A stretch of DNA of 64,000 nucleotides from Chrysoperla carnea. Taxonomy: Eukaryota; Arthropoda; Insecta; Neuroptera; Chrysopidae. A model generated the notes under the pieces. It had not been told where the DNA came from. It saw only the letters and a list, made by a program, of their open reading frames with translations, and did not search any database. This document shows positions 144 through 43,330 of the stretch, piece after piece. The stretch's first letter is position 1, and each line of letters begins with the position of its first letter. The translations under genes and the position numbers were made by a program. The stretch spans positions 73,188,520-73,252,519 of the forward strand of contig NC_058339.1 of NCBI RefSeq assembly GCF_905475395.1, written 5' to 3'.

Positions 144-3100
144 GATCGTTGGATTGAGCAAAGTAGAGAATTTAAGCTAAAACTAACGGTATTGGTGGGT
201 GACGTTTTATTAGCGAGCGGATTTTTATCATATTGTGGTCCATACAATCAACAATATCGCTTGAGTTTAGTGGATACCTGGATCAAACTAATGAATAAAC
301 ATTCCATACCATATACACCAAATTTAAATATTATTGGTATGTTAGTCGAAGATGCCGAGCTAGCCGAATGGGAATTACAAGGTTTAGCATTGGATGAATC
401 ATCTCTGCAGAATGCTTTAGTTGTTACCAAATCGAACTCCTATCCATTATTAATTGATCCACAAAGTCAGGGTAAAACTTGGATTAAGAAAAAAGAAATG
501 AATAATCGACTACAGGTTTCTACTCTTGAGCATAGAATGTTTAGGTAAGTACAACGGTGGATCCAGAGTCAGGGGGAAATTCTTATAAGGCGTCTGATTT
601 CCAGGGGTAAAAATTGACGTTCAAGAAATGTGATTTTAGTAAAAGAAACCTCTATAGTAATATAATAATTATTAGTAGTAGCAGAACTAAATTAAAAAAG
701 GTTTCATTCAAGCTTTACATAAAAAAGATTTGATTTTGCTAATGGGTCCGAGAGTGTTGCCATTTGTCAACCGGTTTCTGGCACACAGCCCACATGAAAA
801 ATTTGGGTGCAAAGCCTATCTGTTTCGGGAGAGATATGCTCTGGCGTCGACAAAATCCTGTAGTTTCATTTCTAATAAAACTTATTACAGGTAGCTCGTA
901 AGAAGAACATAAAGGGCCTACAAGTTTAAGCTGGAGAGCCTCAAATACGATATTCCTTTTATTTCATTATTGTAAAATCGATTTTTTCTAAAAATCTATC
1001 CGCCTAGAAAAAGTACTAGCATACTTTTTTTGTAATTTGTTAAAAGCTGATTAAAACCCCCAACTAACCCCCCCCCAACCCCCATAAAAGAGGGTTAGGT
1101 ACGCCCCTGAGAGGTCGACTTTTTTTTACAAAGTGTTACAACCTAATAAACAACTGTGGAAAATTTCAAAGATGCATTAATTTTTTCTTTATTATTATGA
1201 TATTCTATTTAATTTTATTAGACTTGTTACCTACTTTTAAATTATTATAATTTTTCTAGAACGTATTTAGAAGATTGCCTGGGAAACGGTCGACCATTAT
1301 TAATCGAAGATATCGATATTGAAATCGATCCAGTACTTGATAATGTACTAGAAAAAAATTTTATTAAATCTGGAACAATTGAAAAAGTTATGATAGGCGA
1401 TAAAGAATGTGACGTAATGCCTGGTTTTATGTTATACATAACTACAAAATTACCAAATCCTGTTTATTCACCAGAAATCAGTGCAAAAACATCTATCATC
1501 GATTTTGCGGTAACAATGTGTGGTCTCGAGGATCAATTGTTAGGACGAATCATTTCAATGGAAAAATGTGATTTAGAAGAGGAACGATTCTCTTTGTTTG
1601 AATGCGTTATCGCTCTTCAATTAAAAATGAAAGAACTGCAAACAAGTTTACTGGACCGATTAAATTCGATTGAAGGACCATTAGTGGAAGATGAAACTTT
1701 AAAAAATATCCTACAAACTACAAAAGATACGTCACGGGAATTAGATTACAAATTAGAAATTTCTGCTATAACAGACAGAAAAATTCGTACGGCTCAAGCA
1801 GAATTTCGAGCAGTGGCAGCACGGGGCTCAATGTTGTACTTTTTAATTGTTGAAATGTCAAACGTAAATGTTATGTATCAAAATTCGTTAAAACAATTTT
1901 TACAACTCTTCGATAGTTCGATAACGAAAAGTGAGAAATCTCCCGATACTGAAGAACGAATTAATATTATATTAAAGTATTTAACGCGAGAAGTATGGCG
2001 TTATGTTTCACGAGGACAATACGAGCGTCATAAATCATTATTTACGTTGATGTTAGCAATGAAAATTGACATTCAACGAGGGAAAATAACGCATAACGAG
2101 TTTTTGGTATTTATAAAAGGTATTAAGATATTATTGTTAGAGAATTTTGTTATCTTTGCACAATTGGCAGTTTTCTCAAGCCTAGGATAACAGAATAGAG
2201 TATTTTACTCTATATGAGAAAAAATCTAAAAATATATTATAAAGATAGCTTAAGCAAAAAGCAGTCGGAAAATGTAAATTTTAAAATTCAATTCAAAGTT
2301 TTCAGTTATTTAAATCTGTTTTAACATCATGAAAGAGTAGTCGCCATGTTATTACGTCATACGGCTGTGTAAACTGAAAACTTTTTGTCCTCGGTTTTAG
2401 TTCGTATTTGTTCTCTAGCCGTTACACTAAATATATCGCTGTGGCTATTTTATAGTTAACAGTTGTATACATTCATGTATATAGAAATACCTAGACTCCC
2501 AGATATTTTAATATTGTGGGGTCTTTGATTTTCTTTCTTTAAGTTACAACAGGAATAAGACATATGGCTTTAGATGAATGGCCCTCCCACTTTAGTCCAC
2601 TTGCTTTTGAGGTTTTCTTTAATCGTAACTATCTTATAAGTTACGAGTTGAATTGAGCCTCTTTTTATTTACTGTTTGTGGAAATGCTGCTTGAACATAA
2701 AAATTACCCAAGTATTTACAATTTTGCAAAATGGCTGCATAACAAAAAAAGCTACATATTAACTAAATTTCGATTAGGTGGCGCCTCATTGGATTTAAAT
2801 GCAGTGCAGCCCAAACCATTCAAATGGATATTAGATATCACATGGCTAAACTTAGTAGAAATCAGTAAGCTAACTATATTTAAAGATATTTTACGTAAAA
2901 TTGAAAACTATGAAAAAGATTGGCGTGCATGGTATGAACAAGAGAAACCTGAAGAATGTACTATTCCATGCGGATATAATTCCAAATTGGATTTGTTTCG
3001 ACGATTATTATTAGTGCGGTCATGGAGTCAAGATCGTACACTATCACAAGCACGACATTATATAATGGATTCATTAGGTAGGTATATTATGAGAAATATA

Positions 3101-6100
3101 GACGTTGATTCAATTTTACGATCAAAATATCATAGTTTTCTTAGTTAAGGATGTACGAGCACCAAGGTAGGTAATTTTAAATAAAAAGCTTGATGTTTTT
3201 TAATATGAAGTTGGCCTAAGTTCAAATCAATTCTGAAAATTTTAGGGGAGCGTTGTCCGATTATTTAAATAAATAAATGACTTCAAAAGTAGGCATATAT
3301 ATTTAACATTGATTTTATGGTAAAACTAATCTAGTCGGTGGAAATTAAAAAATAACTATTTAAAGTTAAAACCTTGATAAATTATTGAAAACAAAAAATC
3401 CCGTTCTGCCCGACTAATTAAGGATGTATGAGCTCGGTAGTGGATCCATAAATTTAAAAAAAATTATTTTTTCAATTTTGATGGTGAATTATGTTACAAC
3501 TAGACAATATAAGACGAATTACTACCAGAGAAAAAAAATTAGATTTTTTCAAGTTAGCACGGTTCTGCGGGTTTTATGGCTTTTAAGTTAAACCGTGTGA
3601 TTGCGTTCATTCACTAATTCACGGGTTGGCCATGCCTTTAATAATGTCGAGTTAGCATGGGCATACGGGTTTTTTGACTTGTTAGTTAACCCGGTAATTG
3701 TTTTTGTTCATTCACTGATCCACGGGTTGAGAGCTCGCATAAGTATGCGATCCGGTTTTTTTCTTAAACTAAATTTTTCTTATAAACTTTGATCGAAGCG
3801 TAAACCCCTTTTATATAAGATGCACCTCATAAAGAGTTTTCTCACACGTGAAATACAATTTAGAATTAAGTAATTTGAAATTTTATTTAATTTCCGAAAT
3901 TTTCACATCGATCTGTAGTAAAATATTTTAATGTAGGACCTGAATACGGTGATTCAAATATATTGGATTTGGAAGCAACATGGCTAGAATCTGATTCACA
4001 AACACCCTTAATATGTATCTTATCAATTGGTTCCGATCCATCTCCACAAATAACATCGTTAGCCAAAACAAAAGGTATGCCATTAAGTGCTATATCAATG
4101 GGTCAAGGACAAGAAGTGTATGCCAGACAATTTATTGATAATGGTTTCGCTAATGGTGGTTGGGTACTATTGCAAAATGTACATTTATCGGTACCATTTT
4201 GTACGGAAGTATTGGCTATTTTAGGAGAAGCTGATTTTACCAAAGTCCATGAGACTTTTCGATTATGGATTACCACAGAGGTATGTATGCAGAAAATACA
4301 TGGGCAGGAACGCACATACAGGAAGGAGAGGGGTTTAGGGTCATACCCTAAAATATCAATCAGAACAAGAAATGCATTGCCGTTTCCAAATGTCTACCAT
4401 ATGCTTCGCGTTCTAGCAGTTTTGCCTATGACAACAGCGATGAATTAACGCTTGTTTCAAATTTTCGTCGTCTCAAAACATATCTTAGATCGACAATGTC
4501 TGAAGATCGGCTAAACGATTTAGCCTCGGTCAATATACATCGCGGTGTAGAGGTCGTTGCGAGAGTTTTGGAAAAATTTTGTTCTGTTTCTCGCAGAATT
4601 AACTTTTTGAAAAATAGTGAGAACGTTCTTTCGAGTAAAAGAGTTTGTCTTTTTTCGAGTAAAAGAGTTTCTTGTTTTTATTGACCTTATGACTTAACAT
4701 GATAAGCAAAAATTTGAATCCTCCCTTGGATGATTCCTGCGCACGGACTTGCCTGTGAGTATATGAGACTTGTGAAACTCTCACAGGGAAAAAAGAAGGT
4801 AAGAAGTGCGTAAACGCTTCTCTAAAGTTTTATGGAAAACGATTTTTGCAGTTCTAAAACTTATATTAATTGCAGGTTCATGATCAATTCCCAATAAATT
4901 TACTACAAATGTCAATAAAATTCACAAACGAACCTCCACAAGGTATTCGGGCATCACTTCGCCGTACATATCAAAATTTCGATCAAGAAACTTTAGATGC
5001 TTCCGTACAACCACAATGGCCTGCCATGTTATATTCTTGTGCATTTTTACATACAATACTTCAAGAACGTCGTAAATTTGGACCGTTAGGCTGGAATATT
5101 CCATATGAATTTAATCAATCTGATTTTGCGGCCAGCATGCTTTTTGTACTTCATCATTTAAATGAAATGGATGTTAAAAAGGGAATCAATTGGCCAACTG
5201 TCAGTTATATGTTGGGTGAAATACAATATGGTGGTCGGGTCACTGATGATTTTGATAAAAGATTATTGGTCACTTTTACACAAGTTTGGTTTTGTAATGT
5301 ATTATTACGGCAAGGTTTTGAATTCTATAAGGGTTATAAAGTACCCAATTTAAAAAGTTTAGAGCTTTATATGGAGTATATAAATTCGTTACCATCTTCC
5401 GATTCACCAGAAATATTTGGTCTACACGCAAATGCTGATATTACTTATCAAATAAATACTGCGAAAGGTGAGTTTTCGGTTATTTAATCCTGCGATTTAA
5501 AACGTAGTCATTTCAACTTACTAATTTTGATCCTCGTTAAATTGATCCCCGAGAATTTCATCCTTTGCCATATCGCACCCGTCAATTTTGTTATCCTTTC
5601 TTAACTGTTAAATATGCAAAAAATGCACAAATATTATTGAAATAAAGTGATTAAATTACCCAGTCGTTCTAATGGATTCGAGCTATCACGGATCTGCGGA
5701 TTTTTTCCTCTTGTGTTAACCCTGTGGTTGTGACCAGGGTGGTGCTAAGTCGAGTAAGCATAACCATGCGGGTTTTTATATTTCTCTAATAGGATCGATT
5801 TAGTACAAGCGTGCAAGTTTTTGGCCCCTGAGTTAGCCCTGTGATGGAAATACACAGGCGTTCTACTAGTTATCTAATATCCAAACATTCTAGTTTGCTA
5901 TTGGTGTTCGACCGAAGGTAAATTTTTCTGAGGGTAGGTTATACAGAAACAAAATGATTGAAGGGTGGGATTCCAAAAGTGAAATAGCAGGGTGATTAAT
6001 TTCCGAGGACAAAATGACCGGGATGAAATTTACGAGGATGAATCGACATGGAACCAATTCATCTTCTTATATAATATCTTTCTATATTAGGTATTTTAGA

Positions 6101-9071
6101 TACAATTCTAAGTGTACAACCAAAAGAAGGAGGTGGAGGAGGGGGTTCAGCTAAATCCAAAGATGGTGAAGATGCCGAAGAAGAAGAAGAAGAAGAAGAG
6201 GAAGTACCTGTAGTAATTGAAACGCGTGAAGAAGTTGTATATAAATTAGCCGAAGATATGTTACAGAAATTACCGAAACAATATAATAGCTATGAAGTAA
6301 AGAATGCGTTACAACGTATGGGAGCGTTTTTGCCAATGAATATATTCTTACGACAAGAAATTGATCGTTTCATGCGTGTGATTACCGAAGTGAGTACAAC
6401 GCTGTCACAGCTGAAATTGGCAATTGATGGTACAATTGTTATGTCGCAAACGTTACGTGAATCATTGGATGCTATGTTTGATGCTCGGGTGCCTCTAAGA
6501 TGGCAAAAGGTATTTTTGACCCACTATTAATTTTATCAAAATCAACTTAAATCGATCCTCTTTTCACAAATCCATAGACTAAGCGTGCTACCTGAAAAAG
6601 TAGTTGATTTACAAAATAATTCGTTACAGGGCAAACTCAGCAGGAAAGAGTCGATAAAGGGGCTACAAATATTGGGTAAAAAATCCAACAGCTGCATGTT
6701 TGCCGGTGAAGAGAGGTGGGAAACGGTTTTTTGCGATTTGGGGTATAAATACTCGTCGTATCAAAAAAAGTTAAATGTTATAGTTCTAGACAGTAAAAAA
6801 TCTAAAACTTTTATTTTTATCATTTTTCAAAATTTCGAGTAAAAAGCAAAAAAATATTTTTTTGGTTTTTAACTTTGTATTCCGCGAAAAAAAATGCAAT
6901 CGTTATGTAATTTGGTACAATTGAATCTATTTGAATTCCTAATAGCATAATATTTTTTTTCTTTCTAAGTTCTGAGAAATTTGTAAAAAAACCCTCCTTT
7001 TCAAGAGGCTCAATCCCTTTTGTAATCCTTTTATCGATTCTTTCCCGCTGAGTTTGCCCTGTAATGAATTTTTTTTGTTAAAAAAAGTAGTACGCTTAGA
7101 CTATATCAATATATTTGAGCATGACATAAGCAAATAATTCATTTCGAGTCTTCGAATTTTCGAAAAATTCCAACGGTTTCCGATTTTTCTTCTTAATTTG
7201 ATTTTGCACAAATATAGTTTTTCAAGTAATTTCTAATTAATTGATTATATACCATTTTCATTAGGTATCATGGGAATCAGCAACACTTGGTTTCTGGTAT
7301 ACAGAATTATTGGAAAGAGATGCACAATTTCGTACATGGTGTCAAAATGGTCAACCAACAGCATTTTGGATGACTGGATTTTTTAATCCACAAGGGTTTT
7401 TAACAGCAATGAGACAAGTATATATTTTAGAACAAATTTTGATCTATGTTTTCCATAATCAACCTCAATCAGTAATCGCTTACTCGTTAAAAAAAATGTT
7501 TGTTCGGCCTTATTGAATATTAATTTTTTAGAGAAAATTCTATAGTCGCCCGAGAATGTAGTGCTTTTCCTACTAAATAGGGAACGACCCCCTTAAGAAA
7601 AATTGTAATTTATAGCCAAACTATTCGAGACATGTATATATGTATAACGTCGAAATATTTTTGGTCTTTATTCAAGTGTTGCAACATTGGCATGCCGATT
7701 AGTATGAAAACAAAAATTAAAAAAACGATTAGTATGAAAACAAAAATCACTGGTAAAATCATCTAAATCGACACACTTAATATATTGTGAATTTTCAAAG
7801 TTTTACCTATTCTAATTTTACACACAAAATAGGGATCATTTTAACGCATATAAAGGGGATCATTTTACTCGTAAATACATATTTGAATATCTTCATAAAA
7901 ACTGACCTTGAAATTTTGTTATACGACTATCAAAGTGTCTTATAATATATTATTAAAAGTCAATAGAAGACAAGAGTCAAAAAACATCGGGGGGAAACTA
8001 ACATAAAAAAGAAATTTTACGTTGAAATTTCTCCTAACATAGATCATAAGCAGTAAAATTAATATTTTTGCTAGAAACACAAAATAGCTTATACACCGCC
8101 ATAAGTCTTTGTAGAACGATTAATTTGATCACGTGGAAGTCATCTATCGATAAATATACTAAATTATTATAAATATACTAGTTATGTCTTGTATAATTAC
8201 TTTTTGATTTACGTAATTTTGTACAGGAAGTAACAAGATCTCATAAAGGATGGGCAATAGATACAGTAATAATGCAAAATGAAATAACACGACAAACCAA
8301 AGAGAATATTACGGAACCACCAAAGGAAGGTGTTTATGTTTATGGTTTATTTTTAGAAGGTGCTGGCTTTGACAGACGTTCAAGAAAATTAATTGAAAGT
8401 AAACCAAAGGTAATCAAGAAATATAATAGAGTTTATTGTTTTAATACAGTGACGTAGCGAGCTTAACTCACCCCCGAGGCACAATACCTTTTATTGTTGT
8501 ATCAATATCTAATTTTACACAAAAAGACTTCGCTTTTTCTATTGCCTTTTCACAGAGCTTGCCTCGAATTTCGGCTAGTTCAGTCGCTAATGATTCAAAA
8601 TCATATTTAACATATTATTTTACCAGACAAATCAAGCAAGAAGATAATTTATGTAACCACGCAGCGTAGATACCATAAGGAAATGCTGACAAACACAGGT
8701 CGAGTCAGCACTGCCAGCAATTTTTTGTTTTCGTACCATTTGGTGCCCTTTGTAAGTAGCGCCCGGGCATGATGCACCCCCATTTCCCCTCTCGCTACGC
8801 CACTGTTTTAATATATCCTATCTGTTTCAATTAAATTTGCTTGAATTGGTTTTATCGAATTTAGGTCTTGTATGAACCAATGCCAGTTGTATATATTTAT
8901 GCAATCAATTCAACATCAGCTGCAAAGGATCCAAATTTATATGAATGTCCAGTATATCGTAAACCACAACGGACCGATCTGAAATATGTTGGATCTATTG
9001 ATATTGAAACTGACCATCATCCAAAGCATTGGACTTTACGAGGTGTTGCTGTATTGTGTGATATTAAATAA
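144..9071 (+). CDS. DNAH8: Outer-arm axonemal dynein heavy chain (DNAH5/DNAH8 type), last nine exons
   Basis: Motor subunit of the ciliary/sperm-tail outer dynein arm; it uses ATP to slide axonemal microtubules. Exons read from GT-AG junctions that all keep frame: 144-544, 1260-2119, 2778-3077, 3937-4280, 4876-5467, 6091-6509, 7265-7417, 8227-8409, 8865-9071 (TAA). Together they give 1152 codons, about the last quarter of a roughly 4,500-residue protein; the rest lies left of the window. The part seen starts just after the stalk, runs through AAA5 and AAA6 and ends in the C-terminal domain. Diagnostic strings include [66 protein letters not shown] and the terminal GVAVLCDIK. These resemble vertebrate DNAH5/DNAH8 and the Drosophila Y-linked kl-3 group; choosing between 5 and 8 is not possible from this part. 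Exon 6 adds a Gly run followed by nine Glu. Introns are 0.4-1.5 kb and carry repeats. Confidence 0.95.
3145..3520 (+). repeat. R1 dispersed repeat in dynein intron 3
   Basis: Begins with TTAAGGATGTACGAGC and carries, about 280 bases later, a second near copy of the same motif (AATTAAGGATGTATGAGC). Related copies lie near 28293, 46050 (reverse), 57018 and 60472. No reading frame; probably a non-autonomous mobile element of unknown class. Confidence 0.6.
3555..5850. repeat. Degenerate ~100-bp minisatellite-like units in dynein introns 3 and 5
   Basis: Units around 3558-3640 and 3657-3735 share the pattern of a CGGGTTTT core, AGTTAACCCGGT-like sequence, TTCATTCACT and CACGGGTTG. Weaker relatives lie at about 5690-5850 in a later intron. 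The 63-codon open frame at 3601 is an accident of this repetition. Confidence 0.4.
6615..7075. mobile_element. Inverted-repeat element in dynein intron 6
   Basis: The ends near 6622 and 7066 are inverted copies of about 45 bp, both starting TTACAGGGCAAACTCAGC and continuing through GGAAAGA and TCGATAAA. The interior has no coding capacity. The CAGGG start is compatible with a hAT-type miniature element, but I could not find a clean 8-bp target duplication. Confidence 0.5.
7550..7930. repeat. R7 dispersed repeat in dynein intron 7
   Basis: Contains GGGAACGACCCCCTTAAG followed by sequence also found, reversed, at about 27745-28165 and 48585-48735, including the shared TCGAATAGTTT-like and TTTCGACGTTATA-like segments. 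Non-coding. Confidence 0.5.
8447..8805. mobile_element. hAT-type miniature element (359 bp) with perfect target duplication
   Basis: Terminal inverted repeats CAGTGACGTAGCGAG (left) and CAGTGGCGTAGCGAG (right, read on the minus strand) are flanked by a perfect 8-bp direct repeat, TTTTAATA, at 8439-8446 and 8806-8813. An 8-bp duplication with CAGTGGCG-type ends is the hAT signature. The interior does not encode a transposase. It sits in intron 8 of the dynein gene. Confidence 0.85.
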
Positions 9072-10232: not shown

Positions 10233-12265
10233 TCAATCTCGTTCTTGTTTCAATAATTTAATTTGCTGTGTTAATGTACGAATTTCATTTTCTAAGTGAT
10301 CAACTAATGGCCGTGACACCTAAAATAAATAAAAATATTTTAGGATTTCCAAGGTTTTCTATAAGTAGTGTGCCATCTAAAGTTAATTTTATTATTGGCT
10401 CACCTTTACAGATTATAATTTTTAATTTAAAACAGATGGGCAACTCAATGAGAAACTTTTACTATTTTTAGTTCTAAGGTGTCTTACTACAGATGGCTCT
10501 CTACACGATTAAATGATTGGGCTATCTATTAATTTGTTTGGATAATAATTTACTTATTTCGATGGTTGCAGGGGAAACAATATTTTTATATATCTATAAA
10601 ACCGCTGGGTGTAGGAACGCACAGCTCAAACCGCTGGGTCTTGAAGCCTGAAATTTTGTACACACGTTGCTTGAATGACGTAAGCGAGCACTAAGAAGGG
10701 ATTTTTGGAAATTCCTCCCCTAAGGGATTTGAATGTTAAAATTGGCATTTCTTTCTGTCCATAAAAATAAATTTTTCACTAATCAAGAAAGAAAGAAATC
10801 AAACACTTCAGTTTATCTGCTTGGCACGTCCAGTGTAGCGGGTGTGAAAATTATTAAGTGAGTGTATTCTCAATTGATTGCGTTTATTAACATTTTTTGG
10901 ACCATTTGTGTAGCAAATTTATTTAAGTGTATAGGGCGTTTTCATAGTGTTCATTAACTAATTAGTGCAATTTAGTTTAGGTCGTTTTGGGTGTGTTTAT
11001 AAATATATTTTCTGATTTTTTTATGGAATGTACTGAGTATTTTAGTGTTTAGGTCTGAGTATTTTAGTGTTAATGAGTATTTTAGTGTTTAGGTCTTGTA
11101 AATCGTGTTGATTACCTTTAGTTTATTTGTGATTCTTATTAACTATTAACGAACTAAAATAGTTAGACATCGCATTTAACGTACACCAAATTAGCAAATA
11201 ATAATTTTAAATATGTTAATAATAAAATGAATGCTATTTTGTTTCATATATTGCAATGAATTATATATTATTTTATTTTAACTAGTTATTTTACTTAAAA
11301 AACCCCACTTTATTCTATTAGAAGACAAATAAGTACAAAAAAATTTAAAAAAGATAAACTGAATATAAATAATTCAAATAACACCTAATTCCCGCTTTTT
11401 TTTTAAGTAGGTCACTCTAAGTGCCTTACTCCAGAGGCCTTTTTACACAACATTTTATGTTTAGTAGAGTTGCCTATCTATTTATGTAATCAACTATAAT
11501 TTATGCTTACCTTATCAGTAATATTAACAAACTGTAACGTTTGTAACGCATTATTATGCAACTTCGTTAACTCATCAAATTGTGTACTTTCATTCGAACG
11601 AATTTCTTGCTCCTCCTTACTTAAAATTTCTGGTAATGTAGCTAACGACTGTAATGCTACCGAGCATGCATCAATCGATGACGTTGGTATAATTTCCAAA
11701 CATATTTCCAATCGTGAAAATTGATTATTTAAGCGTGTATTTGTTTGAAAACATGTCACCTGTATATCATTACATTTCGAACGATTCGATGTGGACGATG
11801 AAAATACAGAAAATATAATTCCAACAAAATGTTTATCCATATTTTGATACATCGCTTGTGTTTTTAAATCGACATGAGAAGGTGACACGGTTATATGCGG
11901 ATGTGAATGATACCATCCTAAAACACGTAAATTATCGTTCAATTGCTTTGATACTTCTTCGGCGTAGGTTACAGCTTCCATCAATTGTTCGGGAGATATT
12001 TCAACGCGATCTGGTTGTTTATCACTGCGTGCTAATATACGGCATGCTGTTATATATGATGTGTGTGTTTCTTCGTCTACCTAAAACATGATATCATTGT
12101 AAAAAGTAAAACATTTTCGTCTCAATTCACTCAATGTTGATATTTTTAACTAACCTTTCCTATTAATAAACCCATAACTTCTTCTTTTTCGGTGCTTAAA
12201 GCATGACTAAGACACACAGCATATATTTCAGCTGAAAGGCAAACTTTTTTTAAATATGCCATCAT
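10233..12265 (-). CDS. BRCC3: BRCC36 (BRCC3) K63-specific JAMM deubiquitinase
   Basis: Zinc metalloprotease that removes K63-linked ubiquitin in the BRISC and BRCA1-A complexes, working with an MPN-minus partner (KIAA0157/Abraxas). Three exons on the minus strand: 12265-12155, 12080-11511 and 10319-10233 (TGA), 255 residues, against about 316 in human. JAMM residues are all present: Glu29 in EVMGLLIG, then HSHPHITVSPSHVD with His95, His97, Ser105 and Asp108 (by count). RVEISPEQL and KTQAMYQNMDKHFVGIIFS also match the family. The C-terminal helix encoded by exon 3 is short, which explains the smaller size. The start has two adjacent ATGs (12265 and 12262). Intron 2 (1.2 kb) holds repeats. I recall an ant BRCC36 having been used for structural work, and no Drosophila orthologue. 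Confidence 0.93.
10570..10745. repeat. LINE-tail-like dispersed repeat in BRCC36 intron 2
   Basis: Contains AAACCGCTGGGT twice, followed by GCACTAAGAAGGGATTTT and a CCCCTAAGGG block, a phrase I associate with the 3' ends of insect non-LTR elements. Assignment is from memory of the pattern only. Confidence 0.35.
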
Positions 12266-13485: not shown

Positions 13486-16400
13486 ATGGATGATAAATTA
13501 AGACAAATGGAAGATGAAATGAACAGGTATGATTTCTTAATTTTCTATTTGGCAAGATCCTGGCAAATTAAGATATCCTCCCCCCTTCCTTTAATAACAT
13601 GTTTTTCGTTTAAGGTAGTCCGGCTGTTTGAGCAAGTTCGGTGAATATTCATTTATTTTTTTTTGCGGTAAATGACAATTCAGAGGGCTGCCCGTTCAAA
13701 GTCCCTTGATCACAATAAACACAGTTTTGGAGCTTCTTGCGGGGCCAAATTTTGAAATATTTCATTATAAAATTGTGATTTTTAACACAGTATGTTATGA
13801 AAGAACTCACAATAATGTTAATTGTACAAAAATTAATCGATGATTGAGGATCAAAAAAGTTTTCATCATGTAGAAAATTTGTCACAGATTTTGTTGAAAA
13901 AAAAACATTACCTTACGCCGCCTTCCATAAAAGAAAACATAAAAAAACTTTGGTGTTTGACGCGGTTACGATATTTGTTGAGCATTTTATTACATTTACG
14001 TCATACAAATTCCTAGTTTACGATATTTTTAGAGCATTTTATTACATTTACACCATACAAATTGCTTTGTTGACCAGTCACTGATGGCCGAACTGCTTTA
14101 AATCTAGCAAATTCATACTTCGCAATACTCTAGCCTAATAACATAACATTTTTTAAATTTAGGTTTGAGGCCGAAATATCGGGTGAATCAAGGCAAGTAA
14201 TTGGCGTTAACACATTTAATCAAGTCCAACAAAAATTACAATCCGATTTCACAGGTTTCGGCAGTTTTCCTCCTCCACCACCCCCACCTCCAATACTAAT
14301 CCCACAACAAGTTCGGAGTAGTGCAGCCACATATTCAGCTCCCGCTAGTGTTGTTGTATCCCAACCAGCTGTCGTAACAGCTACACCAAAAATTTACGCA
14401 GCCAAAGCAACAGTTTTATCCAATCCCGTTATTAATATCCCAGCCGTATTAAATATCCCAGCAATTCAAGCCGAAGTGGAAAAGAAATTGAAGAAATTAA
14501 AACCAGATAAACCAAGTATTGCTGCAGAAGTTGCCATCAGTCAAGGTAAAGCGAGCAGTGCTCTACAATCATTTGGTACCGATGAACATAAACGTAATAA
14601 AAAAGGGAAGAAAATTATACGAACAGCTGGTGGACAAATATGGGAAGATCAAACGTTATTAGATTGGGACGATGATGATTTTCGATTGTTTTGCGGTGAT
14701 TTGGGAAACGATGTAACGGATGAACTGTTAATTCGTACATTTAATAAATATCCATCGTTTCAAAAAGCTCGCGTTGTACGAGATAAGCGAACAAATAAAA
14801 GTAAAGGTTTTGGATTCATTAGTTTTAAGGATCCAGGAGATTTTATCAAGGCTATGAAAGAAATGAATGGTAAGTTTTTTTTTTTGGTAATTTTATTTTT
14901 ATTAATATAATCTTGTTTTTACAATACAAGCACGTAGTCAGGAAAAGGTTAAGGGGATTACATTTATTAAATATGTTACACAAGTATTTTATCTTTTTAG
15001 AAAACATTTCTGACTTCGAACTTGAATTAAAAATGAACATGGCAGCAAAAAAATCGCTCCTTATAACAAATTTTTATCGAAATTTCAAACAGATATATCT
15101 CGGCGAAAAATGATATGACCTGAATGAAAAATATAGGGTGGCCATTTTAATCTATTATCCCTAAGAGCTCGTTTTGTAGTTAACCAATCAAAAAATAACT
15201 TAAACAAAAGTTGCAGCGTTTGATAGAGGACATCATATTCTGACATCAGATTGAATCTAGTTTTTCGGGTTTCTTTAAAAGCCAATTTTGATTCTAAACG
15301 GTAAGAGATAGAATAATACTTTAAATTAGAAACTTGATCCTCATAAAAAACTAACAATTTTTGTTCCCAACATTTTTTCAAAAAAACGTTAGCTTTCGAT
15401 AAGCGCATGTCCTCTATTGCCCTTGACAAATTTTGGCTACAGTATTTTTTTCGTACTTAGCGTGTTTTCTTTCGATTAAATGCAATAATGACATATTTTT
15501 AAGTCGCATTACTTCCGAAAGCTGACGGTTTTCGAAAAAATGGTTTGGATGAAAAATATTAGCTTTTTATGTGGATCAACGTTTTAATTTAAAGTGTTAT
15601 TCTGTCTCGAAGAACTAGGTCCCATCTGATGTCAGAACATGATGCCCCCTGCAACTTTTGTTTGAGTTATTTTAAAAATTGGTAAACTACAAAACGAGAT
15701 ATTAAGGTGTATAGATTAAAATGGCCCACTCTGTGTATGATCCGATAGCTTGTACTTTCTAGTTTTTGAGTCAATATCTCAAACATTTTTATTATCTTTT
15801 AATATTTTATGCGCAGAGCTGAAACGCTGAGATTTTGATATGAATTGTAAAACCGTGAACGGGGTTCTTAAGTACTATACAAGACATTGAGTATGACCTT
15901 CTCAGATCGAGTTATTCGCCGAAAAAGCAAAATAGACACTTTTTACTTTGGACTGCCGTATCTCTTCAAATAATAACCACAAAGCGATTGAAAGTAATAA
16001 AAAAATTTCTTCTTCGTATTCAAAAACTATAAATTTCAAGCATCAAATTAGTTGTAGATGATCCCGATTAGACTATTTTTCACAAAGATACAGCTGTTTA
16101 AAATATCGAAAATATTTCAATTTTTTAAAAGGGGCATTTTGATTCCAAATGTATTTAAATTAAAACACTTAATTTTTATTTAAAATTAAAAAAAAAAAAA
16201 AAAAAAAAAATTGTTTAAAAGAAGTATATTTCTTACATTTAATTTATGAATATTTTCCAAATTAATTCAAATTTTTTATTTAAAAGAATATTTAAATGCA
16301 GTTCCCACAACTAGAGTTGGAATAAAATATCACCACTTTCTTGATATTTTCTGAGCACCGTAGGAACTCTAAACGTATGCCATTTAACTTAATAAAAGAA

Positions 16401-19293
16401 TTTGCATTTTTCACAAAAGATAGGGCTCCGTGCCTTTTTAGGGTTTGGTTGCTGAATGTAAAAATACGAATTCCCTAAAATTTCATGTACGTCCCAAATG
16501 TAAGAACTCTTTTAATTTTCCAATTGTTAAGTTCTTTCGAAAATTAATCGTCCCCTGTCCTTTTAATTTTTAAACTATGTTTTATTTATATTAGGGTGCG
16601 CCATATTTTATGTTGGTGTATAAAATTTGAGCAACTTTGGAAAAAAACATCCGATTTCTGTACATGAAGTATTTTTGTTCAATTCGGTTCTTTAAAATTT
16701 ATTTGGATTAGTTTTTGAATACATGAATCAAGTGGCCAACTCTATTGGCCAAAACAAAATTTACCCTTTTTGCTGTGTTTTGGCCCAAATAGTTTTTGGG
16801 CATGCAATGGCGTTACAAGAATCTCATTGTGAATTTTTAGTTAACCAAATACGACAATTTTGAGTTTTTTTCAGAGAGTATGAAAGTCTCCGTCGGGCAT
16901 CAAAAACTGTTTTCGGTGACGATACGAAACTTTGCTCTGGAATGCCTTGGTCGTTGATGAACGGAATATTGACGATATCCCAATGTCCTGTGCTCAACAA
17001 AATATAACACTAAACGTTAAATAATGTTGTCGGGCGGTACTTGTTGGCTGCGATATTTTCGAAAATATGAACTTTGTGTTAACACAATTGTATGACTATT
17101 TTCGATGTATAGCGTCACTATTATGTCAGAGTATTGTTTCGGTGTAAACTGATTCATGAATAAAATTGTACTTAATTGACGTTTCAAAAACATATCTAAT
17201 CAACTCAATCGGTTTACAAATGTCAAAGTTACTCAATGTTAACAAACCGACTTAAAATATGGCGAATCACGTAAATCTGCAAAATCTCAAGATGGTAATA
17301 CTTGATAAGTAATTTTAATCAAGATAAAAAGACATTCTTAAAAATTTTTGAAAATTATGTGTCGTAAAACATTATTATAATAGAATGTCAAATTCGTCCC
17401 AATTTCTAGATCAATTTTTCTATTATAAATCCGTATTTCAATTAGCCTTTTTCTTGGGAAGATTAAAAATAAATCCTCTAGATGGCAGGGCATATTTTAC
17501 CCCCCCCCCCTAGTGTTTCCATCTAGCGGATCTTTTTTTAATCTTCAGAGAAAAAAGGCCTGGAATTATTAATTATTGTATGTCCGGACTTAATGATAAT
17601 ATGATAATGTTTATAATTATGTAGTTAAAATTTTTTATCAGTATTATTTAAAAAATATAATGCTTTAATTAGCCTTTTTCTTGGGAGGATTAAAAAAAGA
17701 TCCGCTAGATGGCAACATTAGAGGGGGGTACAAATATATCCTGCCATCTAGAGGATCTTTTTTAATCTTCCCGGCTAATACAATGTAGTTATCATCAAAA
17801 TTAATTAGCTAATCGTAATTATTCTCTTGAAAGATGATGCTACTCGTCGCTAATTTGAGCGACAAATTTTATTTTTAGTATATACAACAAAACCCTAAAT
17901 ATGCGTGTACAACACGATTACACATTTGGCCCATTTTAAATTCGCATTCAATTTCAAAAACTTAAAAAACCACAAACTTGATCGTATCGTGAACAAAAAA
18001 CAATTGTTACAACATTTTTATCAAAAAAAAAACAAGACTTTGTTTCTGGAAAAACATTTGTAAAAAAATCATCAATAATCAATCAATCACAAATAATAAT
18101 TAAAATTTCCCATCGTCATTGAGATTTTTCACCCGGAATAACACAAAAAACATCAATAGAATTGTTACTTGTTGTTCCATATATGTTTCATTTTCCTATT
18201 TACGTCCTAAGGGACCCCATCCATAGGAGACAAATAATTGTGGTATCACCGAATACGATTTACGAAATGTATTCTTTCGGGTACCAGCAGGAGCTGGAGG
18301 ATGTCGTGGCGTTTGATTTACGATTTCATTTGATTTTGAATTATGTTTTTGATTTGTTGACGAAGTCATTTTATGTTGTTTAAATGATGATAGCGTTGAA
18401 GCCGGTGATAGATTATTCATTCGTGTCGGTGGAGGTTGACTCAAGTATAGGACATTGAATGGCATACCACCTGCAGCCCATCCTCGAGATATAAACGCAG
18501 ATCCATCTTTTTTCTTATCAATATTATTTATTAATAAATTTTGAGATCTATCCATATTTTTCCAACTTGGATAACCATTTACAACGGTGATGATGTTATG
18601 TAATATGCATGTAAAAGTTATTATCGTGTAGAAAGTCATAGCGTGCTTGTAAATATGTTTTGTGACCATTTTTCCTTTTTTGAAATTCTGAAATAAAAAA
18701 AAAATGTAAATTATTATTTAATCTTTTAATATTAATGGACTTCATTTTCTTAATTCTTGGAAAATATTCGATCAATCGTCAAATGTTTACATAGTTTTAT
18801 CAAACTCTCAAAAAAAAAAACTTTCAAGGGTGACAAACATGAGATCTATGAAATTCTTTGTTTGCTTCCGTGGTGTTTACGGATTGTACGAATAGATAAC
18901 TGTCTGTATAAGTGTAAAAAATTCCAGTTTCGGTCGGACACTATTAATTATACTAGAAGTTGTGAAAATTGATTCTGAAAAAACATTCAGTTTTTGGTGG
19001 ACGACCGTGAAATACATGTTTTCCACGAAAATTAATATGAAAAGATTCCCAGGTTTTTTCGACTTTCAATTTTCAAGGCACAGTAAAATATTAGGATTAC
19101 CCAAAATATTTGAATTATTAATTTAAAAATCATTTTAAAATTTGCATTTGTTTTAGGACGTTATGTTGGTAGCCGACCAATAAAATTACGTAAAAGTTGT
19201 TGGAAAAATCGTAATTTGGATATTGTACGAAAAAAAGAAAAGGAAAAAGTAGCATTAATTAATTTACTCACATCTGGTAACAATGGACGATAA
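13486..19293 (+). CDS. RBM42: RNA-binding protein RBM42
   Basis: RNA-binding protein with one RRM; in mammals reported to bind hnRNP K and act in mRNA handling and translation. Three exons: 13486-13526, 14163-14869 and 19157-19293 (TAA), 294 residues. The N-terminal MDDKLRQMEDEMNRFEAEI matches the family's conserved start. It is followed by an eight-proline run, an Ala/Val-rich stretch and a basic KKLKKLKPDKPS segment. The RRM (about residues 172-250) has LFCGDLG (RNP2) and KGFGFISF (RNP1), with YVGSRPIKLRKS across the last splice. The tail NLDIVRKKEKEK is also typical. Shorter than human (about 480) because the low-complexity middle is reduced. The 4.3-kb last intron contains a separate minus-strand gene at 18196-18669 and several inverted-repeat elements. 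AATAAA signals follow the stop near 19318. Confidence 0.93.
13960..14068. repeat. Two ~50-bp tandem units in RBM42 intron 1
   Basis: Two adjacent copies share TACGATATTT, AGCATTTTATTACATTTAC and CATACAAATT, starting near 13967 and 14018. Non-coding. Confidence 0.6.
15134..15731. mobile_element. R3 fold-back element in the last RBM42 intron
   Basis: A ~600-bp element whose two halves are inverted copies: it opens with GGGTGGCCATTTTAATCTAT and closes with ATAGATTAAAATGGCCCACT. Both halves contain TGACATCAGATT/AATCTGATGTCAG-like and TTTCGATTAAATGCAAT-like segments. Relatives lie at about 34248-34630 and 46824-47425. Minus-strand open frames across it are by-products of the repeat. Confidence 0.65.
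16610..17275. mobile_element. Diverged inverted-repeat element in the last RBM42 intron
   Basis: The segment beginning GCGCCATATTTTATGTTGG (about 16609) is matched by a diverged inverted copy ending near 17270 (CTTAAAATATGGCG). The interior has no recognised coding sequence. Confidence 0.4.
17442..17561 (+). mobile_element. R2 hairpin miniature element, copy 1
   Basis: About 120 bp, itself nearly palindromic: TTAGCCTTTTTCTTGGGA at the left, CTCTAGATGGCAGGG and CCATCTAGCGGATC inside, and AAAAAAGGCCTGG at the right. A run of C sits at the centre. Confidence 0.65.
17668..17779 (-). mobile_element. R2 hairpin miniature element, copy 2 (inverted)
   Basis: Same element as at 17442-17561 but in opposite orientation: here CCGCTAGATGGCAAC comes first and GCCATCTAGAGGATC last, with GGCTAA at the end. 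The pair is separated by about 110 bases. Confidence 0.65.
18196..18687 (-). CDS. Secreted neuropeptide-like precursor nested antisense in RBM42 intron
   Basis: Not matched to a named family from memory. The 157-residue frame runs from ATG at 18669 to TAG at 18198-18196. A consensus acceptor (T-rich tract, TTTCAG at 18693-18688) lies 18 bases before the ATG, so an upstream non-coding exon is likely. Residues 11-31 form a hydrophobic signal-peptide core (MTFYTIITFTCILHNIITVV). Candidate prohormone cleavage sites are KKK at 52-54, RK at 131-132 and RK at 136-137. The protein ends in GRK (155-157), the classic amidation-plus-cleavage signal. Cleavage after FRK would release a 17-residue amidated peptide ending SYGWGPL-NH2. 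A second conserved-looking block is SRGWAAGGMPFNVLYLSQ (61-78). It is read from the strand opposite RBM42. Inference: a neuropeptide or peptide hormone precursor; a secreted structural peptide is the main alternative. Confidence 0.6.
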   Translation of the reverse strand, partial: NFKKGKMVTKHIYKHAMTFYTIITFTCILHNIITVVNGYPSWKNMDRSQNLLINNIDKKKDGSAFISRGWAAGGMPFNVLYLSQPPPTRMNNLSPASTLSSFKQHKMTSSTNQKHNSKSNEIVNQTPRHPPAPAGTRKNTFRKSYSVIPQLFVSYGWGPLGRK

Positions 19294-33801: not shown

Positions 33802-36289
33802 TTATTGAAATCCGGCAACTGGAAATTTTTTTAAATGCTCGCCGAGTATACTAGGAAATAGTGAAATGAATTTAAAACGTTCACCCATTTGATCGGCATC
33901 AGTCATCACTTTGTACGCTTGCTTCAATGAATCGATTTGTTGTTGATTTTTGGCATTTTTAATTAGCATATCTAAACGTATCTTAATACCTAATGAATTT
34001 AAGAATGCACTTTGTGTCACTGGTCCAAATGCTAAGAGTTTTTGATCTTTGGTAGCGTATTTTATCAGTTGTTTAAAATCCACATCGGCCGTTAAATCCG
34101 CTGTTCCAGGATTTAGTAACGGATTATATTGTTTATGTTTTTTGTATGCCTAAAAAAAGAATTATTTTCAAAAGTATCGGAATATTGATAGCACCGGTGC
34201 TGTGTCAGGTTGAATTGTTATCTGTGTTTTTCGAAAGTCTTTAAATATACAGGATGGGTTATTTTAATCTATAATGGCTAATAGATCGTTTTGTAGTTTG
34301 ATGGAGGACATCATGTTCTGGCACCAGATTGGACCTAATTCTTCGACTTTCTTTAACAACCAAATAAGATCCAAAACGGTAAGATATAGTATAAAGCTTT
34401 AAATTATAAAATTGATCACATAAAAGAACTAACAAGTTTTGTTAAAATTTTTTCGAAAAACTTAGCTGTTAGCTTTCGGAGGAAATGGGAGTTAAAAATA
34501 AATCATTTATTTCATTTAATCGAAAGAAAGTACCCTTAAAGATTATTGATAATTGTAGGTCCAAATCATGGACACAGACGAATATCCTCTATTGCCCTTG
34601 ACAACTTTTGGCTAAGCATTTTTCATAAAACTTACTCTAAATGTATCACGTTTGTCACCCATATGCCCATAATCTACAATTAATCCAATACCACCATCAT
34701 TTTCGAATCTGGATGCAATATGCTCAATAATCGTTAATGCTTTTGGTGATATTTCAAATTCATTACGATCTTCATGTAATTCGTCGATTAATTTTGATGA
34801 GCTTATTGCTGTAGCCGTTGGTGATAAAACATATTTAAATTGTTTATCTTTTTCACTATAATCAATTAATATTTCACGCCAACCATTTGCGGTTTTCTAA
34901 AACAACATAAAAATTAATTTTTACGATTTTACTTCCAACCAATTTTTTTATAATTTATTAATCGGTAGTAATGAATCTAAGAAAAAATTTTTTGGCCAAA
35001 GAGGAACAAATGAGAAATTTTTTGTAGCAAGATATCACCCTGTAATAAGTGTCTTATAATAAAAATGGAAGATTCAGTTTTGGGGGAAAAAGTAAGATTC
35101 AATTTTTTCCTTATTTGCTGCTACTTTAATGTATCAAAATTACAAGACATAGAAAATACAACATACCTTAATTTTATGTATTGGTAAAACATCAAAAAAT
35201 TCATGTGCAACCAAAATAGAAAAATTTTTAGGCACATCTTCAATTGAATCGTACCAATACACATATAATCCATCCGGGGTCACACCGGTTTTCGAATGAT
35301 TTACTTCGATATTTGAACTATTTGTTTTTGTATTGTGTTGTATTGAGTATTCTTCATTCAGGCTCACTCGTAATGTTTTCGCTTGAATTTCTCGCATATA
35401 CGGGCTAACTTCAACTAAATGCAAACTTATAAAAGGATATCGATCTTTTTGGATGTGACGAAATACCTATTTTTAAATTTATGATATAAATTTAAAATAA
35501 TATTAAAAATATTTTATATTTTAAGAAGTTTTTTTCTCGTTGGAATATGTTTCAATTTAGCAGTACGAGAGGACACGGTTTTCTTGGAAACAACGTTTTA
35601 TTAAATATCTCGTGAATCGTGCAACCGCGCAACATTTTCTATAACTTTTATTTGTAACTTTTTTCTGTATAATGCATAGGTTCTTATTTAGACCGCTCCA
35701 AACTTATGATACTTTTATGTATCTGCAGTCTTTAGTGAATTGCGTAAACTAACGTTTAACACCGCAATAATTTAAAAAAATTATAATAGTCGCATAACAA
35801 TTATTTTTAAATGGAACGATTCGAAAACTTCCTTATTTTTTTACCCTTAAGACGTCTGCAGCTAATGTACCTCTTCCTGGACCTAGTTCAATTATTTGCA
35901 AAGGAGTTGGGTCACCTATTTTTTCTAATTCACTTATAAACCATACAGCAATCAACTGTAAGTCAAGTAAAATACATTTTCATAGAAAATTTTAATGAAG
36001 AATGAATTTTTGTGTGTGTTAATACCTCCCCAAACATTTGTCCCATTTCTGGTGATGTAACAAAATCACCACGCTCACCAAAAACATCCCGATTCATATA
36101 ATAACCCAATGATGGATTCGTTAAAACTTCTTTCATATAATCAGCAACTGTTATGGGGCCAGTTAATTTCATTCGTGCCGCCAGTTCTCGAGTTAATTTA
36201 TTTGTTTCATTCAATGCATTTTTATGAGTATTCTTTGCTATTGTACAATAAAATTGCTTGGGTGTATGCGATAAAATTTTCCGTAACAT
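33802..36289 (-). CDS. NDUFAF7: NDUFAF7 (MidA-type) mitochondrial arginine methyltransferase
   Basis: Complex I assembly factor that in human symmetrically dimethylates an arginine of NDUFS2 in the mitochondrial matrix. Five exons, all in phase 0: 36289-36026, 35955-35845, 35466-35167, 34896-34636 and 34149-33802 (TAA); 427 residues, human about 441. The N terminus ([20 protein letters not shown]) is basic and suits a mitochondrial targeting peptide. MidA landmarks are [39 protein letters not shown], the SAM-binding ELGPGRGT (residues 111-118), AHEFFDVLP (212-220) and [17 protein letters not shown]. It is head-to-head with SURF1; the ATGs are 1.09 kb apart because a 940-bp element sits between them. 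Intron 4 carries an R3 fold-back copy. Confidence 0.95.
34248..34630. mobile_element. R3 fold-back element, shorter copy, in NDUFAF7 intron 4
   Basis: Opens ACAGGATGGGTTATTTTAAT and carries GAGGACATCATGTTCTG, AAACGGTAAGATATAGTATA and TTGCCCTTGACAACTTTTGG, in the order found at 15134-15731 and 46824-47425. Confidence 0.55.
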
Positions 36290-40038: not shown

Positions 40039-40687
40039 ATTTTATGGGCATTTAGAAATGAATAAGTTGAAATAAAGATTATTTATTTTATCAAAAACAT
40101 AAGTTTTTTATTTTTACCTTTTTTTGATCGACAAGTTTTAAGTTTTTTATATTAGTGATGTTCCGACTAGTCGGCAAAGCCGAATTTCTGGTCACTTTCG
40201 TAGTCGGTCATTATTCGGCAAAGAGACGTCCTACTAAAGAAACATTCATTAAAATAATCTGTCTGTTATCTAACGCAGACTAAGAAATGAGTTATTAACA
40301 ATTTAGTTATTAAAACTAATATTGAAATTATTAAATTACAATTTGAACTGAAAGCAGTCGCTTGGCATCGAGTCTATCCCATTTGATTACTTTTTTGTTC
40401 ACAAATATTTTCAATTTTTAAAATTGAAAATTTTATAAATAAACAAGGCCGTCGCTAGACGATAATGTACCAAATACACTTACGAAGAACGTCCATTCAG
40501 TAATTCAACGATTACACATTGGCGGAAAAAAAATGTACTAAATTTTACAAAAAGCTGTTGGAGAGTCTACACGAATATTTTTGTCAAAAACGATGAATGT
40601 ATCTCATCGTCACGAAATTTTCACGGTTTTTACCATTCTAGTTGATATTACTATAACAGTACATATAGCTATATCACTAAGAATGGT
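40039..40687. other. Intergenic stretch after SURF1
   Basis: AT-rich, no gene seen. 40627-40691 holds an imperfect inverted repeat (TTTTTACCATTCT ... AGAATGGTAAAA) that directly abuts the large palindrome at 40688. Confidence 0.5.
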
Positions 40688-40885
40688 AAAACAGTACACA
40701 TTTTGTGACGCAGAGCACATATAGAGGATAGTAATGAAATAATGTTTGGAGAGCACGGAAGATTATGAAAGTTAAAAATTATTTATTTAAATAATTTTTA
40801 ACTTTCATAATCTTCCGTGCTCTCCAAACATTCTTTCATTACTATCCTTTATATGTGCTCTGCGTCACAAAATGTGTACTGTTTT
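40688..40885. repeat. 198-bp near-perfect palindrome
   Basis: Two 97-base arms (40688-40784 and 40789-40885) are inverted copies with two mismatches, around a 4-base centre. The arms contain GTGACGCAGAGCACATATA and GGAGAGCACGGAAGATTATG. No coding sequence. The near identity implies recent origin or ongoing gene conversion; a hairpin-type miniature transposon is the likely source. It lies about 70 bases from a tRNA gene. Confidence 0.85.
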
Positions 40886-40952
40886 TCGATATTTTTAATT
40901 AATACTCAATATAAAATTTCTAATAATTTACGTTCAAAATAAAAAAAATTTA

Positions 40953-41025
40953 TGGTTCCATCCAGGATCGAACTGGAGACCTTCTGCGTGTAAAGCAGAC
41001 GTGATAACCGCTACACTATGGAACC
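40953..41025 (-). tRNA. tRNA-Val (anticodon TAC)
   Basis: A 73-base minus-strand gene from GGTTCCATAGTGTAGCGGTT to the discriminator A. The acceptor stem GGTTCCA pairs with TGGAACC. The anticodon loop TTTACAC between TCTGC and GCAGA gives anticodon TAC, decoding GTA. The T arm has the B box GTTCGATCC; the A-box region is TAGTGTAGCGG. No intron. A T-tract follows as Pol III terminator (ATAAA then eight T). Confidence 0.95.
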
Positions 41026-41540
41026 TATGGTAACACAGCTATTTTTATAAGTTATATTCTAGATAAAACTTACGAAATTAAATAATATTACTTCAAAACT
41101 AACTCATTGAAATATGAATCCTTTTTATTTGCGAATAAAAATAACATAAACTACTTATTAAACAGAGTGTTTCGTGATTCGAGAGGCACATCATAGATCA
41201 AATATATAGTTAGTGGAGCAAATAATAAAAAAGTCAACAAGCTGTGTACAACAATACGACCCAGATACTGTTCAATTTCACGCGTTTAACAATTGAGTTT
41301 CGCGCAACAATTTAGACTTAAAATTGTACAAGAAATACGCTCGTAATGTTTTGTTAACTTTCACATATCACCTCTAAAGTACCTATAATTTTCATAGTCA
41401 TAATAGGGGATAATAATATAAGGGTTTCGAAATAATAAATTAAATCAAAATATTAAAATTACAAATAATTTATTGGCTATAATCTTTTTATACAATTTAT
41501 TTACTTAAATCTAATTTATATATAAACTTCATTTCTAAAA

Positions 41541-41625
41541 CGTAATTAAAAAAGTTTTAAAATCGATTTAATTCCACCCTGTAATGGTTTATGAATTAAA
41601 CGTCACACTAAAAACATTAATTACG
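41541..41625 (-). promoter_or_regulatory. SECIS element of selenoprotein K (3' UTR)
   Basis: Read on the minus strand: lower helix CGTAATTAA / TTAATTACG (9 bp, perfect), then GTTTT / AAAAC, an internal loop, the quartet strand GTGA (41606-41603) opposite CGAT (41565-41562), an upper helix GTTTAATTC / GAATTAAAT (9 bp including one G-U), and an 18-base apical part starting ATAAACC. The unpaired AAA falls 12 bases after GTGA, where SECIS elements carry their conserved adenines; CC and GG can close a small apical stem, as in type II SECIS. The quartet starts with G instead of the usual A. It begins about 175 bases after the UGA codon and lies upstream of AATAAA signals near 41470-41500. Confidence 0.85.
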
Positions 41626-41780
41626 TCATAGTGTTACACAAAAATGTACATCGAAATTGAATTTAAATTATTATTATAATTATTTATCGTAAAGAATCAA
41701 AAATTTTGAATTTGTATAACGTAAATGAAGCAGTTTGTTTTACGCCCTTTAATAATAGTGTTAACCATTATATAAAGGGT

Positions 41781-42287
41781 TTAACGAGCTCACCCACCAC
41801 CAGCCATAGGAGTTTGGCAATCTGAAATGGTTGCAATTCGTCCAATTCTTCTCTGAGGCCTATAAAAAGAAATTATGTGTAAAAAAAAAATAATGTGTAA
41901 AAAATGATATTTAATATTATTTACCCTCCACGACCTCCACCACCTGGTCCCCCTCGACCTCCACCCCATCCACCTCCTCCTCCTCCAGGTCCACCTCCGG
42001 GACCATTACGACGATTGTTAAAATCAGCGAAACCACTTAAAACTGGATCAGTTAAAGTTTTGAAGCTGAAAATTTTTTAAAATTTAAATTTAAAGTTTAC
42101 AGACTCGTAGTAATTGTAACTTACAATAATTGAATAAAAGCAATAAATGCCCAAAATATTTCCACGAATCTTTCTAAATTCCATGGGCGACTATTGTGAA
42201 CTGTCCCATCTGTAAAGATTGTAAAATTTCTTTTAGAAAATATGAATAAAATAATATTAAACAAGTACCTTTTGCGACGTAAGGCAT
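41781..42287 (-). CDS. SELENOK: Selenoprotein K with in-frame UGA (Sec) codon
   Basis: Small ER-membrane selenoprotein, known in mammals for binding p97/VCP and DHHC6 in ER-associated degradation and palmitoylation. Four minus-strand exons: 42287-42269, 42209-42125, 42065-41925, 41859-41781. Reading TGA at 41792-41790 as Sec gives 107 residues with the tail MAGGG-Sec-AR and then TAA; vertebrate SelK ends MAGG-Sec-GR. Other family marks: short luminal start (MPYVAKDGTVHNSRPWN), one membrane helix at about residues 21-35, FKTL just after it, a Gly-rich cytosolic region, and RRIGRI before the end. A UGA three codons from a TAA, plus the SECIS hairpin downstream, makes a plain stop unlikely. It lies between two tRNA-Val genes. 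Confidence 0.93.
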
Positions 42288-43257: not shown

Positions 43258-43330
43258 TGGTTCCATCCAGGATCGAACTGGAGACCTTCTGCGTGTAAAG
43301 CAGACGTGATAACCGCTACACTATGGAACC
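43258..43330 (-). tRNA. tRNA-Val (anticodon TAC), second identical copy
   Basis: All 73 bases are identical to the gene at 40953-41025, with the same strand and the same trailer (ATAAA followed by a T-tract). Similarity stops just outside the gene on the 5' side. A local duplication followed by conservation or conversion is the simplest explanation. Confidence 0.95.

Follow-up and report, generated by a model that had tools for sequence, protein, structure and literature searches.

The locus examined here, in the genome of the green lacewing Chrysoperla carnea (Neuroptera), raises the question of whether the in-frame UGA of a small gene encodes selenocysteine (Sec) or ends the protein. We analysed the window, that is, the whole stretch of 64,000 nucleotides around this gene from 73188520 to 73252519 of contig C3, together with the genome assembly (559,487,470 bases in 337 contigs). 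Judged from the sequence, the gene is a functional selenoprotein K (SelK) gene whose UGA is decoded as Sec, a reading to which we give a probability of about 0.95.

A four-exon SelK gene with an in-frame UGA

The SelK coding region lies on the minus strand at 42287-41781 of the window and comprises four exons separated by introns of 59, 59 and 65 nt, all three with GT-AG boundaries. Exon 1 (42269..42287) contains the ATG start and encodes MPYVAK, exon 2 (42125..42209) encodes a hydrophobic segment and was the part matched by PF10961 in the genome profile search, exon 3 (41925..42065) encodes a Gly-rich region, and exon 4 (41781..41859) contains both the UGA and the terminal UAA. The joined exons specify 107 residues, reading MPYVAK...TPMAGGG-U-AR, and hold a single in-frame UGA (41790..41792), the putative Sec codon at residue 105 of 107; the terminal UAA, read from the joined exons, is at 41783-41781. 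The C-terminal tail is thus MAGGG-UGA-AR-UAA, with the UGA in a GG-U-x-R context. SelK in other animals is a small ER-membrane protein, and other SelK proteins carry a GG-U-G-R motif. With U entered as Cys, the protein matched the Pfam family SelK_SelG (PF10961) at 72.3 bits (E 5.3e-20) over profile positions 1-86 of 86 and residues 2-103, which is the full-length domain. Across the genome, PF10961 identified one SelK locus only (six of six candidates scored). The complete four-exon gene ending in MAGGG-UGA-Ala-Arg-UAA, which a preliminary description had proposed, was therefore confirmed by the joined exons and the Pfam match.

Architecture of the SelK SECIS element

A SECIS element, delimited by an Rfam SECIS_1 match and by folding, occupies 41540..41626 of the minus strand, with its quartet about 180 nt downstream of the UGA. 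The outer helix, ACGUAAUUAA/UUAAUUACGU, has 10 bp (41626-41617/41549-41540) and is followed by an inner helix, the quartet UGAC/CGAU and an upper helix of 9 bp, one G-U pair included. An AAA, in the apical part AUAAACC, lies 12 nt after the UGA of the core and precedes a 3′ GA, and the apical mini-stem has 2 bp only. Two helices around the quartet together with an apical mini-stem constitute a type II architecture. The fold has an energy of -16.5 kcal/mol with the quartet held open versus -17.0 kcal/mol when free. A published search rule asks for NTGA, AA 10-13 nt on and GA 15-39 nt further (PMC2375036); the SelK element, with distances of 12 nt and 24 nt, conforms to it, as do two further candidates described below, those of SPS2 and of a SelH-type gene. 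The quartet, 9-bp upper helix and AAA spacing had been recognized in the preliminary description; its base helix of 9 bp is extended here to 10 bp, so that the last base, 41540, falls one outside the range 41541-42287 that it had assigned to the locus. It had likewise noted a G in place of the usual A, which holds, and had taken it for a quartet base, which does not: the G of GUGA (41606-41603) is the unpaired base preceding the quartet. Two AATAAA poly(A)-signal-like motifs (41501-41496 and 41474-41469, minus strand) lie downstream of the hairpin.

The Rfam SECIS_1 model (RF00031) aligned end to end with the hairpin at 41554-41615 and gave 30.5 bits (E 1e-4 in the 121 nt searched), which falls short of the gathering score of 35; the SECIS_1 consensus has A where the SelK hairpin has G. 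Genome-wide, RF00031 returned no match, not at SelK either; 150 of 11532 candidates were scored, so this result says little, and elements of this kind evidently do not pass the search pre-filter.

Could the hairpin be a chance fold in AT-rich sequence? Over 101 nt its folding energy hardly stands out from that of shuffled sequence (z -0.81, equalled or bettered by 36 of 200 shuffles), as this explanation would have it; it is more distinct over 86 nt (z -2.05, 7 of 200). Chance is also favoured by the better-scoring sites elsewhere in the window: on both strands of the 64 kb, four other sites outscore the hairpin in a SECIS scan whose rule was written after the hairpin had been seen, and three do so with a covariance model built from the SPS2 candidate, of which two fall within a single long inverted repeat. 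This SPS2-only model, one sequence entered twice, ranked SelK first within 1 kb and the SelH-type element second of 16 at its locus, and was rejected for the window as too unspecific, with SelK level fourth among 31 matches. Against a chance fold, when the 341-nt 3′ UTR was shuffled with its dinucleotide content kept, only 2 of 3000 sequences equalled the scan score of the SelK hairpin, its Rfam E value is 1e-4 in 121 nt, and matching elements occur just after the SPS2 and SelH-type genes, where 1 and 0 of 3000 shuffles, respectively, reach the observed score. We therefore consider a chance origin extremely improbable.

Two further selenoprotein genes

At least two selenoprotein genes besides SelK are present, SPS2 and the SelH-type gene, in a census that is incomplete, as it covered named families only and the genome-wide SECIS search was unsuccessful. 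The SPS2 gene, on contig C1 at about 16.24 Mb (locus-relative 5758-8202, UGA at 5806-5808), reads MSEKLIYLTKYTKLRG-UGA-GCKVPQEVL, that is, LRG-UGA-GCK, from a start chosen by eye; its exons taken singly score below the TIGR00476 cut-off. Its SECIS candidate carries GUGA 36 nt past the stop and combines a 7-bp outer helix, a 9-bp upper helix and a 4-bp mini-stem. Its minimum-energy fold coincides with the SECIS structure (z -2.80, 3 of 200 shuffles as good), and the element is the only scan match at or below -8 on both strands of 9.9 kb.

The second gene, on contig C5 at about 14.202 Mb (locus-relative 1357-1858), was revealed by a genome search with TIGR02174 (40.1 bits) and belongs to the CXXU family, scoring 43.9 bits against a cut-off of 34.2 with the UGA entered as Cys. 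Read without its first exon, the frame gives EHCSS-UGA-SVFKRR followed by a UAA stop, and we call it SelH-type by its CSS-UGA motif. GUGA stands 33 nt past the stop in its SECIS candidate, which has a scan score of -19.8. From CGAC to GUCG the sequence takes on a SECIS fold, and the best fold of a slightly longer stretch pairs part of the quartet and is unremarkable in energy (z -1.47, 16 of 200 shuffles as good). An Rfam scan of the SPS2 and SelH-type candidates listed no SECIS family; with the settings used here, Rfam SECIS models thus missed two of the three candidates. A genome search with PF10262 found SelT only, in which Cys replaces Sec (frames read by eye).

The lacewing retains the machinery for Sec insertion

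All six core Sec factors (tRNA-Sec, SecS, PSTK, SPS2, eEFSec and SBP2) were found in the C. carnea genome, as the preliminary description had predicted; absence of tRNA-Sec or eEFSec from the assembly, which it had named as evidence to the contrary, was not observed. Two genes for tRNA-Sec, separated by about 6 kb and identical except for one base, score 76.7 and 72.9 bits; they are the only two above the cut-off of 47 among the 37 matches listed. The same loose search also gave matches in 14 of 14 control genomes, above the cut-off in 5. Genome profile searches placed five SecS matches at a single place and gave eEFSec 117.4 bits against a cut-off of 27, and for PSTK two PSTK models were the best NCBIfam matches, with scores below their cut-offs. 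PF01248, tried for SBP2, yielded seven matches, by eye pieces of SNU13, NHP2, S12, L30 and L7A, and missed SBP2. Searching the genome with an SBP2-like query sequence located the SECIS-binding domain in two exons (E 1.5e-7 and 0.061), and the joined pieces matched SBP2 of PDB 7zjw (E 1e-8; next match 0.062). There are two SPS genes, SPS2 with UGA and SPS1 with Arg at the Sec site (GRGCK) in one open frame. SPS1-Arg with SPS2-Sec is the insect pattern in Sec-using species, and the lacewing pair fits it (PMC4561486).

These components suggest how the SelK UGA may be read. SBP2 would bind to the type II SECIS of the 3′ UTR and then recruit eEFSec, which would bring tRNA-Sec to the UGA for decoding as Sec; the product would be SelK with Sec two residues from the C-terminus and a probable function at the ER. 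The alternative is that the UGA is an ordinary stop, the protein ending at MAGGG and the hairpin being a relic. Such relics exist, as degenerate SelK SECIS elements are described in Drosophila persimilis and Drosophila willistoni (PMC2500217); the missing tail would amount to three residues only, and the SelK element scores under the Rfam cut-off. Set against this, the Sec machinery is present and two other Sec genes are kept, the quartet, spacing and both helices of the SelK element are intact, and the same octamer is preserved in three unrelated 3′ UTRs. We judge an ordinary stop very improbable and retain Sec decoding as the reading of the SelK UGA.

A shared GUGA core and octamer

The SelK gene is itself ordinary; the interesting part is the G-type set across the genome. 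An A directly before the quartet is usual, though not obligatory; it is absent from all three SECIS candidates, each of which has G instead, preceded by UAGU. The SelK (UUUAGUGUGAC), SPS2 (CAUAGUGUGAU) and SelH-type (CAUAGUGUGAC) elements share the octamer UAGUGUGA, which in SelK lies at 41603..41610 on the minus strand. In 225,994 control bases (113 kb, both strands) the octamer occurred once, as the SelK element itself, against 2.3 occurrences expected from dinucleotide content; the corresponding expectation for the three 341-nt 3′ UTRs of these genes combined is 0.010. This control consisted of the window and 11 of 48 host loci, hand-picked, with one locus (L024) lying inside another (L026) and counted twice; neither the host loci that contain the three elements nor the rest of the 48 entered the count. 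The 3′ UTRs with the octamer come from genes of different families, so the common octamer probably reflects a recognition constraint that all three share. More tentatively, and with the odds in our view somewhat against it, the lacewing lineage may have replaced AUGA by an extended UAGUGUGA core throughout its SECIS set, accompanied by co-adaptation of SBP2, a reduced three-gene selenoproteome having let the signal drift as one unit. Three Sec genes with the same uncommon SECIS core offer a compact natural test of SECIS-SBP2 co-evolution.

The GUGA type of SECIS is already known outside the lacewing. It is described for all elements except one of the green alga Ostreococcus tauri and for several zebrafish and nematode genes (PMC2375036), as well as for 12 of 21 elements in a sponge, in a study according to which nearly all remaining invertebrate elements are of the AUGA type (PMC3473315). 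Like the lacewing candidates, these elements have G before the quartet and an apical AA (PMC2375036, PMC3473315); the lacewing differs in that all three candidates combine GUGA with UAGU upstream. A comparable extension is described in Dictyostelium, where a fixed sequence, UGUA, precedes the core in all identified elements (PMC2375036), although both the tetranucleotide and the lineage differ. In the portions of the SECIS and Sec literature examined, no uniform set of this kind (three of three GUGA with a fixed 5′ extension) was found for an insect.

Sec use in Neuroptera and other insects

As in the lacewing, SelK in Drosophila and in the beetle Onthophagus taurus has Sec near the C-terminus and a SECIS in the 3′ UTR, and is kept together with SPS2 (PMC2500217, PMC5330540). 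Lacewing SelK differs from these in its MAGGG-U-AR tail, the G before its SECIS quartet and its host order. The lacewing trio of SelK, SPS2 and the SelH-type gene is the trio reported for Drosophila (PMC2500217). Sec had been lost in the beetles, moths and wasps sequenced at the time of that study (PMC2500217), and two beetles were later described as keeping it: O. taurus has both SPS2 and SelK, and N. vespilloides has SPS2 (PMC5330540). The taxonomic value that the preliminary description saw in the locus holds, within the limit that Sec retention in endopterygotes is patchy, the two beetles included (PMC5330540). The string 'neuropter' is absent from the main text of three papers on Sec in insects (PMC2500217, PMC5330540, PMC4561486), and a search of open-licence PMC literature found no selenoprotein reports for Neuroptera, Neuropterida or Chrysoperla. 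By gene content, Neuroptera joins the endopterygote orders that retain Sec decoding, a result relevant to the number of times this trait disappeared in beetles, moths and wasps.

If Neuropterida are the sister group of Coleoptera, the lacewing trio supports losses within beetles and not before the split.

Sequence surrounding SelK and a bacterial segment on C1

Two tRNA-Val(TAC) genes on the same strand, identical over 86 nt, flank SelK at 40953-41025 and 43258-43330 of the window. Beside the 3′ end of SelK lies a long, near-perfect, MITE-like inverted repeat (40683-40890) with 103-nt arms that are 96% complementary and a 2-nt gap. Six of nine neighbouring frames tested had a Pfam match; they include dynein heavy chain exons (1222-5484), a BRCC36-like JAB protease (11493-12080, minus strand), an RRM protein (14134-14907) and a Methyltransf_28 protein (33805-34149, minus strand). 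A 157-aa open reading frame at 18196-18669 (minus strand), which starts with hydrophobic residues and carries SYGWGPLGRK at its C-terminus, resembles by eye an amidated neuropeptide precursor; the 173-residue open frame around it had no Pfam match.

Elsewhere in the assembly, a bacterial 16S rRNA gene (1191 bits) is located at C1:139380997-139385321, inside the chromosome 1 scaffold near its end, flanked on both sides by frames for IS200-like transposases (Y1_Tnp) that are nearly identical to each other. A 30-base pattern from this 16S rRNA gene had no match in a contig database search. The closest relatives of one of the two transposases, among the best 80 of 278 matches, are from Alphaproteobacteria, Holosporales included, and the segment is either a symbiont-derived insert or a misassembly.
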